Assembly: GCA_034231615.1 (NCBI GenBank) | Contig: CM067298.1 | Coordinates: forward strand, 54,464,883 to 54,528,882 | Source of the DNA: Meghimatium bilineatum | Taxonomy: Eukaryota > Mollusca > Gastropoda > Stylommatophora > Philomycidae | DNA length: 64,000 bases | Direction: 5' to 3' | Shown here: one piece after another, positions 55,001-61,079 of the stretch | Position numbering within the stretch: the first letter of the stretch is position 1 | Layout: every line of letters begins with the position of its first letter | Position numbers and translations under genes: made by a program | The notes under the pieces: model-generated | Told to the model about the DNA's origin: nothing | Seen by the model: the letters and a program-made list of their open reading frames with translations, nothing else | Databases searched by the model: none

Positions 55001-55479
55001 TGCTACGTGAGTAATGTTATCTGCATGAATGGATGCGTCGCGTCCGGTTGCGAAACGCATCCAAGATGGAGACCAACGCATCCGGATAATATATAGCTCA
55101 TAGACATAATTACTGGCTGTGGAGAGATCGTGCAAAGATCTTGCAGGTCGTGCAAATGTCGTGCACGTCACAAAAAGGTCGCGCAGGTGGTACAGAAAGC
55201 ATGCAGTGAGCGCGTAGGGTTGAGGAGAGGTGGTGCACTGGTTGGGCCGTGGGTCACACCTGAAACTGGACGAACTTTTAGTTTTTAGGAGATATCAATA
55301 AACCAGAGGTGGGTGTGTTCACTGTTCACGCCCACTGTCAATTCAATTGCAATTAGAAAATTCAAGGGAAATAAGAGATACCCTTCAATTGTCCCTTGGT
55401 GAAATCAGGGGAGGCAAGCCAGAAACTTGGCAGGTAGACATCATCTAGTACCATTTCTGCAACAAAGGTTGGCTGCAAC
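55001..55479. other. VMAT 3' flank or intron 13, no feature recognised
   Basis: Follows the exon 13 donor. It contains short repeats such as gtcgtgcaaatgtcgtgcacgtc near 55.15 kb. I saw no convincing terminal VMAT exon (acceptor followed by a short acidic reading frame and stop). Confidence 0.4.
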
Positions 55480-55760
55480 AGATCTCAACATCCCCTGCCT
55501 CTTGTTTTGGTGATGCACTCTGCTAGACTGTACCCTGTCCATCTTGTGATGTTATTCTCCCACACGTATCGCGTATCTCTGTCTACCTCGTGTTCGTTTC
55601 CCTTTGACTTTACCTTCAAGTAAGGTCTTCAATAAGGTGTCATTTCTTTTAATGTGTCCAAAATATTTTATTTGTCTAATCTTGATTTGTCTTAGTAATT
55701 CTTTCTTCATATTAAGTGTTTTTAGAACCTCTTAACTTTGTTTAGTTCCTTCTCTTGTGG
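55480..55760 (-). mobile_element. LINE fragment, antisense
   Basis: The minus strand reads as a degraded reverse-transcriptase C-terminal region, and the plus strand shares wording with the fragment at 29,330-29,480 (ctgtaccctgtccatcttgtg versus ctgtatcctgtccgtctcgtg). Stops in all frames. Confidence 0.45.
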
Positions 55761-56069
55761 CAACGAATACAGTGTATATTATAATAACGTTAAATGCACA
55801 CACAGTTTCGCATTAGCATTTCACTCAACCAACAAAATATATTTCACTTTCAAACTGAACACAATGATTGCAGAATATTTTGCTTTATGATTTTTATTTA
55901 AAACAAAATTAAATTCTGTATATTGTCATTTCTTGCATCCAATATCTTAAAGATGAGTATAACTCAATCTTTATTTATTATGTAACAACGATCTGGATAC
56001 ATAATACTGGAGATAGAGATACATGATCATATATGATTATATATAGTAAATATATATAATATAATATAT

Positions 56070-56760
56070 AATATTCAGCCCATCCTTCTTCATGGAAGAG
56101 AAACATGGACAGTAAACAAAATTAATTGTGCAGGATAAGGTGGAGTCATCTGATATGTGGTTTTTAAGAAGAATGATGAATATTTTTCCCGGCATGGACA
56201 GCCAAGAAAAGTAATGTACAAGTGTTCAGTGATGCAGGAAGAGTAGAAAGGTAATGTACAAGTTTTCAGTGATGCAGGAAGAGTAGAAAAGTAATGTACA
56301 AGTTTTCAGTCATGCATGAAGAGTAGAAAAGTAATGTACAAGTTTTCAGTGATGCAGGAAGAGTAGAAAAGTAATGTACAAGTATTCAGTCATGCATGAA
56401 GAGTAGAAAAGTAATGTACAAGCTTTCAGTGATGCAGGAAGAGTAGAAAAGTAATGTACAAGTTTTCAGTGATGCAGGAAGAGTAGAAAAGTAATGTACA
56501 AGTTTTCAGTGATGCAGGAAGAGTAGAAAAGTAATGTACAAGTTTTCAGTGATGCAGGAAGAGTAGAAAAGTAATGTACAAGTTTTCAGTCATGCAGGAA
56601 GAGTAGAAAAGTAATGTACAAGTTTTCAGTCATGCATGAAGAGTAGAAAAGGACAACTTATAGCAAAAATTAAAATCAGAAAATCAAGATTTTTAGGGTT
56701 GAAAAACAATTGTTTTGGAAAAACAGTTTTGATGAAAAACGGAACTAGAACATTTAGTAA
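56070..56760 (+). mobile_element. LINE fragment, reverse-transcriptase C-terminal end
   Basis: Plus-strand frames give SSDMWFLRRMMNIF and, after the 40-bp array, KIKIRKSRFLG, matching the C-terminal region of other LINE copies here (FCRRMLRISWTVRKTNVEVL at ~15.7 kb). Heavily mutated and interrupted by the minisatellite. Confidence 0.6.
56207..56650. repeat. 40-bp minisatellite, about 11 copies, seeded in a LINE
   Basis: Unit aaaagtaatgtacaagtttt followed by cagtgatgcaggaagagtag, repeated about eleven times with a few changes (catgcatg for gatgcagg, one ctttc). The sequence before and after is LINE reverse-transcriptase C-terminal coding DNA (WFLRRMM... and LIAKIKIRKSRFLG in degraded form), and the unit corresponds to the SNVQVFSDAGRVE stretch between them. 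Thus an internal LINE segment was amplified. Confidence 0.9.
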
Positions 56761-56924
56761 CCACTAATTAGCTAATGTGTGATGTCATTCAGTGAGTTGT
56801 GTAAACGTCCTCCTGTAGGATGTGTAGATGTCATTGTGTGGGATATGTATGTGTCATACTGTAAATGCATATAATATGCCATGTGATATGTGTATAATAT
56901 GATTCAAACCTAATTCCACTATAA

Positions 56925-58371
56925 CTAATTTGACTTGGACTTCTTGGGACCAGAAGCTGGAGAGGCCTGCATATCGGGAGATACTTGAAGAAGATGTGTC
57001 TCCATTATAAACTTCATTTGTTTTGTTTCATTCCTTATAGTCCATGCTCTTTGCTCTATTTTACCTATTGTAGAGTGCATTAGCTCTCCGCCCTGCTCTC
57101 CATGAAATCCTAGACCAAATCTGTATCTGTCTAGCCATGGCACACAATGAAATTCTAAAATGTGCTGTTTGGGTATAACTTTTTGAGGAAAGAATCTTCT
57201 GTACAGTGTCACGTATGTCTTAATGCATGCTTGTATATCTGAGATAGACTGTGTGTATAGGGGATGTGAATGAGATACTAAATTGTGTATATCACTGTAT
57301 GCATTGCTCAGAGCATCAAACAGGTTACGAACTTTGAATGCTTTCTCAATAATTGAATATGTGGATGTATATTCGGTTGTTGTTGCTACAATTGTCTTGG
57401 TTAAGTCAGTGTATACTGGTGTTGTGAGATATTTGTTGCAGTGATTGCCATTGAAAGATCTACTGTGAAATGATTGTATGTAAATATGATGTTTGTGTAG
57501 TATTTCGTCTAGTTTAGAACACACTGGACCAGACCTGGTAGTAAGTGGAACATAAAGCAAGTTATGCAAAGTGTCCTCACATGCTGACAGTTTTGTCTGG
57601 AACACTTCCTTTTGAACAGGATCAGTTTTAAACACAACACATCCTTGCAAGAGCTCCATTTCGGAAGTCTTGCATTCAAAGAGTTTCCAGTTACTACCAT
57701 ATCTGGACAGTGTTTCTGCTTTTTTATTTCTGTTTTCACTGGTATCCTGTTCTATTGCTGCATCTATAGTGTCTGCTTCAATCTCTAAGAGTGTATGGTG
57801 TTTGTGAACTATACCAAGAAGAATGTGTAAGTATGGTGGACAGACTCTATCAATGTCAATATCTAACAATGGGGAATGTATACTATTGTGATAAAACTTT
57901 GCGTACTCCTTTCTCTCAAGTCCATATTTTCTAAATCTACGATTATCTGTGTACAGCATAGTAAGTGTTCGTTCATGAATAACTGTTTGAGGTTTCTGTA
58001 TGTCTGGTTTTTCTTGCAAGCACCACAAACAAGGAAATGTGCCTTGAGCTCCAGACAATCCATTTACTTTACATAAGAAGTCATAATCCCCAAACAGAAA
58101 TGTCACTATCTTTTTCCCTTTCCACTCTATTCCCTCTACTTGTTTAATGTTTTCCCTAAGATCCGCTATCATAACTGTTAAGTTATGAGTGTCTTTAATT
58201 TTTGTAAGTGTCTTTAATTTTTGCCATTCCTATCATAGTGGTATTGAATTTGGAATTAGGTCTGTCTATATTCCCTATTTGTAAAAATGTTTTTAAACTG
58301 CTCTTACCGTGATCTCCTCCAAATTTCACCCAAATTTCATTGTCTGGTATGTGTCTATCGTGCCATGTCAA
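56925..58371 (-). pseudogene. RAG1-like catalytic core
   Basis: Opens with VKFGGDHGKSSLKTF (Asp codon 58,312-58,314), is broken by a 19-bp duplication at 58,189-58,222, then runs open for about 415 codons to its natural-looking stop at 56,925. Ordered motifs: FLFGDYDFLCKVNGLSG (Asp codon 58,086-58,088), CLWC, PPYLHILLGIVHKHH, HILEFHCVPWLDRY, GFHGEQGGELMH (Glu codon 57,096-57,098) and a Lys/Ser-rich end. Asp/Asp/Glu plus C2H2 zinc ligands is the RAG1/Transib-type RNase H-like arrangement. Which Glu is catalytic is uncertain, as two lie four residues apart. Confidence 0.75.
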
Positions 58372-58994
58372 CTATCCTAAATTGTCGTGCTTGTCTAATA
58401 TACTAACTACATACTTCTGAATATCTACAATTGATACATAAGGAAATACAACTTGCATGTTATCTACTCTAAATTCTTTTGTTTCTACTTGAACATGTTC
58501 AGACACGAGACTCTTTGCCAGACTTCGTTTACATCTTTCAAGGGGTAGATGCAAACCAGCCTCCTTCAAGAACTTCCTCTGGATTCTCAGTTGGCTCCAT
58601 GTTAGCCCCGTGGCTTCCTTCATGATCAGTGCATTTTTCTCGTCCATGTCTATTTTTACATTTATTCCTGCTCTCTCACAAATTTCATATCGTTGTCTAG
58701 CAGGAATTTTCTTTAGTTCAGCAACGTGTTGCTTCTCTAAAGAATCTTTGGCCTGACCTGCAATATGTTTCCGTACACTGCATAGCAAATTAGTTCTTCT
58801 TCTTTTTGTTGGTGTGCCAATTAGATTTGTTTGTTTTCGTGGAACTATTATTCTTTGAAACACTAAAGGTTGTCCTCCTGTTTTGCACCGTAAAAGTTTA
58901 TTAGGGTTGTTGTAAAGCTTCCTTTAATTAGATGTGTGAGTAATAATTCCTCCTTATTTGTCAATGGTTCTGATATAGGTTTGTTGATATATTT
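58372..58994 (-). pseudogene. RAG1-like element, middle basic region
   Basis: Two frames: about 58,950-58,994 reads KYINKPISEPLTNKEELL and LLTHLIK, then a frameshift near 58,940 leads to RKLYNNPNKLLRCKTGGQ and PLVFQRIIVPRKQTN. The rest is open to an in-frame TAG at 58,372-58,374. The region is rich in Lys/Arg (TPTKRRRTNLLCSVRKHIAG) and amphipathic segments (LEKQHVAELKKIPARQR), as expected of a DNA-binding part. The frame continues beyond the TAG into the catalytic core (WHDRHIPDNEIWVKFGGD), so the stop is a mutation. Confidence 0.65.
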
Positions 58995-59494
58995 TTAAAA
59001 ACTAAAGTCATGTTTCATCATGGGAGAAGTGGCGCTGTCTGATGTTAACTTTCTGAATTCAGAAACTGTACATGTTGTAACTGCAGGATATATGCTAGTT
59101 ATAGCAGAATCGTGTATGTTATTGGGCGTTGAAGGTCTAAAATATGTGGAGGGTGTGCTGATATAACTACATTGTGGATATGCAGGAGTTGTAAATGTGG
59201 AAGGTGTGCTGTTATAGTGAAGATGTGCAAATGCAGGTGTAAATATGGAAGGTGTGCTGGTATAGCTACATTGTGGATATGCAGTTGTTGCAAATGTGGA
59301 AAATATTCCATTATTATATGGAAGACAACGGCGAGCTGTGGGTACTGTTAAATTTGTTGGATTGTTATTACTATTGGTGAGTTGTGGAGACAATCTTGCT
59401 GTCACTGGCATTAGAATATCTGCCTCGGTTTCTGTAGCAGGAAATAACACAGGCACAGATACATCATGATCATTATCAGAATTATCAAAAACTC
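58995..59494 (-). pseudogene. RAG1-like element, low-complexity linker
   Basis: Continues from MKESFDNSDNDHD into a stretch rich in Ser, Thr, Pro and Tyr, with repeats such as YPQCSY, PSTF and TPAYPQC, ending SPMMKHDFSF and an in-frame TAA at ~58,995. The same frame continues after the stop (KYINKPISEPLTNKEELL), so the TAA is a single nonsense change within a poly-A/T run. No fold is predicted; it is a likely disordered spacer between zinc domain and core. Confidence 0.65.
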
Positions 59495-59498
59495 TCTT

Positions 59499-59880
59499 TC
59501 ATTTTATGCTGCCACAGTTCATACTTTGATGATGACTACACACGGAACATTCTAAAACAGTTAGGTTAGGATTAAAATCCATCCAGATGTGGGCACTTTT
59601 AGTAGCTATCAATTTGGCTCGAGCTAGAGATTTACTATCCTTGTTGATTTTGAGTTTATGATTTCGCATTACACACTTGATACACAATGTGGTTGAATGT
59701 TTTGTTTCACTATCGTACATGATATGTATCCCATATATACTAGCCAGGTCACTTTGATATAAGCTACAGGACAGTGGTTTCTTCTGCATCCTTTTATCTT
59801 TCTTAGATAATGTTCTTCCTGCACAAATTCTGCACAAATCATTCAAAAATCGCATGTGTAGTGAACTGCAGTGATCCATT
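59499..59880 (-). pseudogene. RAG1-like N-terminal zinc domain
   Basis: 126 codons from ATG at 59,879, immediately after a splice acceptor (tttcaaaacag). Cysteine pairs fall at about residues 16/19 (LCRICAG), 66/69 (LCIKC) and 111/114 (CSVC), with HSTT just before the second pair and IWMDFNPN before the third. This order and spacing is the signature of the RAG1 N-terminal zinc-binding region. The frame ends in TGA just after CSVC (NCGSIK), and the protein continues in another frame (MKESFDNSDND), so one indel separates this part from the rest. Confidence 0.8.
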
Positions 59881-60710
59881 CTGTTTTGAAATACATTTAA
59901 AAATATTATTAACACATTTTCACAAAAGAAACGTATAACATATATTTATTACAATAGTAAATTACTTCTGTGTATGTGTAGCATGCAACGAACTTATTCG
60001 AACGGTTATGGGGATCCAACCGCGATTGATAACTATCACACAGAACAAGTTCGTAGCGTTAATGCTACACAAAGAATGAATCTTTTACATGATCTAATTG
60101 CGCAATGTAACTAATTTCGATCATATTTGCACAAGTAAAATGAGATCTAACTAGATATACATGCTAAACTAGTGTTTGATGGTGGCACAATAGGTTTATT
60201 TTGGACTTAATATTTGTCGACCACGAATTGATAAATTATCATGAAGACAAGTTCGTAGCGTTAATGCTACACAAAGAATGAATCTTTTACATGATCTAAT
60301 TGCGCAATGTAACTAATTTCGATCATATTTGCACAAGTAAAATGAGATCTAATTAGATATACATGCTAAACTAGTGTTTGATGGTGGCATAATAGGTTTA
60401 TTTTGGACTTATATTTGCCGACCACGAATATAAAAATTATCATGAAGACAAGTTCGTAGCGTTAATGCTACAAAAAGAATGAATCTTTTACATGATCTAA
60501 TTGCGTAATGTAACTAATTTCGATCATATTTGCACAAGTAAAATGAGATCTAACTAGATATACATGCTAAACTAGTGTCTGATGGTGGCATAATAGGTTT
60601 ATTTTGCACATTCTTATGGTAAACGATGATCTAACAAATTTGACACTGTATGTAAAGTAATGATATTAGGCCTACTAAATTAACATGAAGAACAACGAAA
60701 TTGTCTTACC
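59881..60710 (-). other. Probable 5' intron of the RAG1-like element
   Basis: On the minus strand, tatacag|gtaagac at 60,710/60,709 is a strong donor, and tttcaaaacag|aatgg at 59,881/59,880 is an acceptor placed one base before the start codon. Together they suggest a non-coding first exon upstream of 60,710 and an intron of ~830 bp. The intron contains three ~200-bp tandem repeats. The extent of the first exon and the promoter are not visible. Confidence 0.5.
60046..60608. repeat. Three ~200-bp tandem repeats
   Basis: Three units begin with caagttcgtagcgttaatg at about 60,046, 60,250 and 60,450 and share the order aagaatgaatcttttacatg, gcgcaatgtaactaatttcg, aatgagatctaactagatat, gataataggtttattttg (with small changes). 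Identity is high, so the amplification is recent relative to the decayed transposase. They lie within the probable 5' intron of the RAG1-like element. Confidence 0.85.
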
Positions 60711-61079
60711 TGTATAAATATTGAATGTGCACTGGTCAAAAACAATGACAACCTAATAGGACTTGTACAAAAATATGACGATGGAAAATGTTGAGTTGTG
60801 CTTGCAAATGCACAAACAATGGCTGCTGTATAAAATTCGCAAAATTGAGAAACGGTATCTTTGAACCAGAAGCGAAATCCAAGCCTCCACGCGAATTATT
60901 TCATTCACCGCTGGGTAATAAATATGTCAGGTCTGTAACACACCTTCAGGACTACAATAGCTGAAATGCCTCGTGTGTGGCCGAACTAAGAGTCCACATT
61001 TTTAGTAAGGAATAACAGGTGTGGGGTGGGTATGGTGTATGTATGTTCATGTAGAGATCAAATAGTGGCGTGCAGTGGC
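60711..61079. other. Upstream flank of the RAG1-like element
   Basis: No gene recognised. On the minus strand this would hold the first exon and promoter of the RAG1-like element and possibly its terminal inverted repeat, but I could not pair any terminal sequence here with the flank near 56.8 kb. Confidence 0.3.

Follow-up and report, generated by a model that had tools for sequence, protein, structure and literature searches.

Ends with 12- and 23-bp spacing in a Chapaev-type transposon family of the gastropod Meghimatium bilineatum with a RAG1-type N-terminal domain

Did one mobile element carry both halves of RAG1, the N-terminal zinc region and the catalytic core, before there were vertebrates? 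The question is raised by a stretch of 64,000 nucleotides from Meghimatium bilineatum (GCA_034231615.1, contig CM067298.1, positions 54,464,883 to 54,528,882 of the forward strand), the whole of which we call the window, and in which a sequence-only reading had placed a RAG1-like transposon at 56925..59880. Taking architecture and end model together, we consider it very probable that the window holds a decayed cut-and-paste DNA transposon of the Chapaev group. The architecture of this element is ordinary, a known arrangement within a known superfamily in which relatives of both RAG1 halves had already been described; what was unexpected is the 12/23 spacing of its ends.

A probable Chapaev family with uninterrupted members in the same genome

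Comparing the core frame with the 1.6-Gb genome of the same animal, in which 97 of 429 candidates were scored, yielded 105 matches. Five of these fall within frames of 985-1001 residues that have no interruption and show 95-97% identity to the window copy. All five paralogues have the N-terminal domain and the core in one uninterrupted frame, which bears out the earlier claim that both parts belong to a single transcription unit. Residue numbers below are those of P0001, the 979-residue protein read from the first Met of the uninterrupted L031 frame. Against P0001, the window copy covers residues 1-319, 313-561 and 552-979 with two frame changes, and its motifs are distributed over four minus-strand frames between 59945 and 56925. 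With its frame changes and the in-frame stops at which these frames end, the window copy is broken, and it is not expected to yield a transposase protein. The interval named by the sequence-only reading encloses the coding part but falls short of the whole element, which runs from 55255 to 61023 (Table 1).

Direct flanking repeats of 4 bp were found in eight of eight copies with both ends in view. In addition, L033 sits inside another family copy, the two pieces of which overlap by 4 bp on L036 because of the target duplication. Chapaev hallmarks are duplications of 3-4 bp, CAC/GTG termini and a DDE (Asp-Asp-Glu) motif with CMC residues (PMC4079192), and the 4 bp of this family fall within that range, whereas Transib-type elements make 5-bp duplications (PMC4411706, PMC8355894), the length that would be expected on the RAG1, RAG-like (RAGL) and Transib side. 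The domain homology, the form of the ends and the 4-bp duplications, together with numerous copies and five long open frames in one genome, point to a Chapaev element, with membership assigned from the sequence hallmarks and the domain set.

Among the matches listed, P0001 has 24 homologues at E <= 0.001, all 24 with DUF1280 (25 of 25 alignment members), and the only named one comes from a sea slug, Elysia marginata. Homologues from other sources likewise carry the N-terminal domain and the core in one protein. A Pfam domain search found no RING finger in P0001; homologue P0024 has one after the zinc domain, above the Pfam cut-off. Both domain sets fit the Chapaev architectures of Kapitonov and Koonin (PMC4411706), by whose account Chapaev transposases have a Chapa (RAG1 N-terminal) domain, followed in two subgroups by a RING, and Chapa domain and core were joined in an ancestor; in their analysis RAG1 groups with TransibSU, and Chapaev forms a separate clade. 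The EnSpm-Mirage-Chapaev-Transib group as a whole has C(2)C and H(3-4)H motifs and mostly CA..TG ends (PMC12730594), and the present family agrees with Chapaev of the CMC group (PMC4411706, PMC4079192) in its CAC...GTG ends, 4-bp duplications, DDE core with C(2)C and H-x4-H, and RAG1-type zinc domain. The genome also contains tens of copies of a sister Chapaev group (L052, L055 and L057; about 38-48% core identity). The 5' boundary of this group is sharp (near 2681 of L055, reverse complement), and a long satellite lies on its 3' side.

Bipartite ends with 12- and 23-bp spacers

The element terminates in CACACCTG and CAGGTGTG. In all ten 5' ends and all eight 3' ends, CACA(C/T)CT is followed by a second block (ACTTTTAG, allowing one mismatch) after 23 bp or 12 bp, respectively, a count that leaves aside one chance match in L032. 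One 12-bp and one 23-bp end were present in each of seven two-ended copies (7 of 7), L060 differing with spacers of 22 and 12. A listing restricted to block-bearing sites had 44 rows. Of these, 43 are family ends at 23 or 12 (some of them one genomic end present in two loci), and the remaining row, in L057 at 43, is an unrelated site.

In one pair of ends alone, the 12/23 pattern could be luck. For L031, L034, L036 and the window copy, 111, 62, 159 and 1497 of 3000 shuffles reached the common word, and 5, 3, 5 and 46 reached it with the 11-bp offset. The genome-wide scan for CACACCTG, 0-30 bases and ACTTTTAG, with the reversed pattern as control, returned 621 sites against 64. Spacing 12 accounted for 422 sites (control 1) and spacing 23 for 141 (control 0), so that 563 of 621 lie at exactly these two lengths; the other 29 spacings share 58 sites, 2.0 each compared with 2.1 each in the control. 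Of the 100 sites among the matches listed (contigs C1 and C2), 70 had a spacing of 12, 23 a spacing of 23, two a spacing of 22 and five another, and all ten convergent pairs within 8 kb among them join a 12 with a 23 (nine) or a 22 (one). The spacers themselves are diverse: the 23 listed 23-bp sites have 13 distinct spacers in two clusters, with up to 15 of 22 bases differing, and the 70 listed 12-bp sites have at least 34, two being outliers that may be chance sites. The second cluster of 23-bp ends (AAACTTCTA...) is a candidate for pairing with a 12-bp end in one element.

With the heptamer taken as 7 bp, the family thus resembles recombination signal sequences (RSSs) in that an element has the second block 12 bp from the heptamer at one of its ends and 23 bp from it at the other. 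The RSS nonamer, however, is A-rich, with the consensus ACAAAAACC, and on the heptamer strand the second block of the family reads ACTTTTAG. By analogy with RSSs in V(D)J (variable, diversity and joining) recombination, the transposase would bind two unlike ends, each with a CAC heptamer at the cleavage site and a second block beyond a spacer, of 12 bp in one end and of 23 bp in its counterpart, and one end of each kind would pair in the synapse. Searches of the literature (largely without subscription journals, and without Repbase) found no mention of bipartite 12/23-spaced ends for Chapaev, nor is there one in the available parts of PMC4411706 and PMC4079192.

The transposase: zinc domain, linker and core

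The N-terminal motifs LCRIC, LCIKC and CSVC lie in the open reading frame (ORF) 59945-59499, and GDYD...CLWC...HILEFH...GEQGGE in ORF 58229-56925, both on the minus strand; the three CxxC pairs and the D...D...CxxC...H-x4-H...E series are therefore where the sequence-only reading saw them. Among 13 N-terminal sequences (P0001 and 12 relatives), little or no variation is seen at C16/C19, C66/C69, W99 and C111/C114. Across the alignment of 25 sequences, D523, C612 and C615 are invariant and D593, H901, H906, E923 and E927 nearly invariant; the columns of a DDE triad are thus conserved, as are CxxC and H-x(3-4)-H, which lie between its second D and the E. Given this conservation, the N-terminal and core motifs are more than chance.

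Judged by profile comparison, the N-terminal domain is homologous to that of RAG1, as had been proposed: its profile matches RAG1 21wb_A at E 1.2e-10, and PF12560 was found in 12 of the 13 N-terminal sequences at E <= 10 (best 4.6e-10). The predicted model of this domain has a pLDDT (predicted local distance difference test) of 93.9. A match of the N-terminus to SseK_NleB (E 0.0094, and 0.006 in a second search) was weak and taken as chance. The linker between zinc domain and core is predicted to be disordered.

The core is predicted, from a structure model, to be of RAG1 type in its fold. In the structure comparison, HzTransib rows align from model residue 409 on, as do most RAG1 rows, and 6 of 30 RAG1 rows start at residue 345-348. 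Homology of the GGQP segment to the nonamer-binding domain (NBD) was considered because of these six rows and because the whole-protein profile pairs KTGGQP with RAG1 NKGGRP, at low alignment confidence; the segment profile A5 matches nothing in the PDB, and we leave this homology as suggestive. Searches of Pfam and the PDB with single window pieces (four in one search, one each in two) gave nothing useful, and PF12940 (RAG1) had no match in the genome, a result that is uninformative since control genomes were also silent.

The spacing from the second His to the Glu had been thought equal to that of RAG1. It is 17 here (H906 to E923), but 20 in RAG1 from H942 to position 962, which is E in chain 9jpu and Q in 6oem; 17 residues past H942 is E959. 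The second Asp may align without gaps with RAG1 D708 through VNGL and CxxC.

Alternative explanations

That the locus is a RAG1-like transposon from the Transib/ProtoRAG side, newly uniting both RAG1 halves, was the placement first suggested, and we regard it as very improbable. Its duplications are of 4 bp rather than 5 bp, it belongs with the DUF1280 family, P0001 lacks a detectable RING, and the core has no significant sequence match: core profiles A3, A4 and A5, compared with the PDB, matched neither RAG1 nor Transib chains at E <= 10 (a positive control was not run), and the whole-protein profile reached RAG1L at a non-significant E of 0.34. Moreover, the domain combination is already in print, and the suggested new bearing on the joining of the halves before vertebrates has been overtaken by the Chapa-bearing Chapaev of PMC4411706 and the protostome RAG1L of PMC7204232. 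Almost certainly wrong is the notion that N-terminal domain and core come from separate elements and were joined here by nesting. Many copies do keep the N-terminal part without much of the core, but the single open frame across both in five copies already refutes it; four of five shortened copies examined (L036, L049, L050 and L051) share both ends with the full element, the 3' end of the fifth, L035, not being found, and homologues from other sources combine both parts.

A further explanation concerns the ends only, namely that a chance 12/23 spacing became fixed in a single ancestor and was passed on without any role in pairing of the ends; we hold this to be distinctly possible, if somewhat doubtful. 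The clear 12/23 cases are copies of related families, single end pairs give modest evidence, with shuffle counts of up to 1497 of 3000, and P elements have spacings of 9 and 21 (PMC7776569), so RAG is not alone in having unequal ends. On the other hand, the blocks are kept while the spacers vary, 563 of 621 sites fall at exactly two lengths, and a scan for exact blocks selects conserved blocks, not spacer length. We nevertheless prefer a Chapaev element whose unlike ends would take part in pairing, and several observations weigh against that preference. The 563 sites are copies amplified in one genome and therefore not independent events; the window copy's own ends agree in just 6 bases beyond the octamer; and the sister group (L052, L055 and L057) yielded no CAC ends and therefore no test of the spacing. 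The heptamer length of 7 bp was set by analogy, and counted as 8 bp it gives spacers of 11 and 22, although the 11-bp difference is independent of the length chosen. On the protein side, the N-terminus of P0001 itself matches PF12560 at E 0.079, PF12560 was found in just 6 of 25 full-length proteins at E <= 1, and core relatedness is argued from the predicted model because the sequence profiles give no significant match.

Relation to known systems

Several known elements share part of this combination. N-RAG-TP of Aplysia is likewise a mobile element with a RAG1 N-terminal-like part, set apart by its description in PMC8355894 as N-terminal-like sequence throughout. RAG1L, ProtoRAG and TransibSU (PMC7204232, PMC4411706) likewise combine N-terminal zinc motifs with a core of RAG1 fold in a single protein, as do most protostome RAG1L of Martin et al. 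(PMC7204232), but they have a RAG2L partner and a reported core identity to RAG1 of >30%, and TransibSU duplications are reported as 5 bp. RAGL ends are not 12/23 (27/31 in amphioxus; PMC8355894), and invertebrate RAGL is expected to be rather insensitive to end asymmetry (PMC7204232). Transib has a RAG1-fold core and in a few cases 12/23 asymmetric ends (PMC8355894), but lacks the RAG1 N-terminal region (PMC7204232, PMC8355894) and makes 5-bp duplications; PMC8355894 names some Transibs as the only known instance, V(D)J recombination apart, of 12/23 asymmetry. The unequal P-element transposase sites are likened to RSSs in PMC7776569.

It is conceivable, though in our view unlikely, that an ancestor shared by Chapaev, Transib and RAG had bipartite 12/23-type signals and the RAG1 domain order (zinc, GGQP/NBD-like, DDE), with Transib later losing the N-terminal parts and most RAGL the 12/23 spacing. 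If so, the 12/23 rule would be an ancestral transposon property rather than a vertebrate invention. The family would provide a second, more distant natural system for weighing ancestral against convergent 12/23 spacing, and thus bear on the origin of the rule; its value lies in the combination of a RAG1-type N-terminus, a predicted RAG1-fold core and 12/23-spaced ends in many closely similar copies.

The Chapa/RAG1 N-terminal domain (P0001 residues 1-122; RAG1 21wb_A) may also bear a weak resemblance, in sequence and in fold, to the ZAD (zf-AD) domain. PF07776 (ZAD; cut-off 28 bits) was found in 6 of 13 sequences at E <= 10, the best at 5.9e-6 and the four known scores being 12.2 to 22.7; the fold comparison took in 169 Foldseek chains, with RAG1 21wb_A not among the rows listed. 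ZAD domains have a dimerising role. By analogy, the zinc domain would serve dimerisation or regulation, and the weak link to ZAD hints at what a little-understood region of RAG1 may do.

Layout of the window copy and its derivatives

Table 1. Features of the Chapaev-type element in the window
Feature	Position	Strand	Remarks
Whole Chapaev-type element	55255..61023	-	5,769 bp; 5' end (coding direction) at 61023; boundaries common to alignments with L031-L036
Target site duplication, 5' side	61024..61027	.	ACCC on minus strand
Target site duplication, 3' side	55251..55254	.	ACCC on minus strand
5' end	60986..61023	-	Heptamer CACACCT, 23-bp spacer, second block ACTCTTAG (window copy; ACTTTTAG in most other copies)
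3' end, inward reading	55255..55281	+	Heptamer CACACCT, 12-bp spacer, second block ACTTTTAG
201-bp tandem array, 5' region	60045..60606	.	2.8 units; repeat analysis and alignments
Transposase residues 1-319	58923..59879	-	In-frame stops present
N-terminal zinc (Chapa / RAG1 N-terminal) domain, about residues 1-122	59514..59879	-	Profile match to RAG1 21wb_A, PF12560, model
Residues 313-561	58198..58947	-	GGQP segment, DUF1280 region, first catalytic Asp (GGDHG)
Residues 552-979	56928..58208	-	Second Asp (GDYD), CxxC, H-x4-H, Glu (GEQGGE), C-terminal domain
40-bp minisatellite, 3' untranslated part	56205..56651	.	11.2 units

The number of units in the 201-bp array differs among copies, as judged from staggered alignments, and alignments with other copies are interrupted at the minisatellite. 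L060 contains a 706-bp miniature element (34-739) with 22-bp and 12-bp spaced ends and a CTCT target duplication. In another derivative, represented by L036 (4,131 bp) and L024-L030, the N-terminal part is retained, and a 412-residue frame reaches no further than the beginning of the core and lacks the catalytic Glu. We considered the 316-, 276- and 412-residue frames of shorter copies as possible trans-acting products, but claim no function for them because those examined are internal-deletion derivatives. Among the latter, L049 (2,711 bp), L050 and L051 have the family ends; together with a 276-residue frame common to 22 copies among the matches listed, they point to recent amplification of a non-autonomous form.
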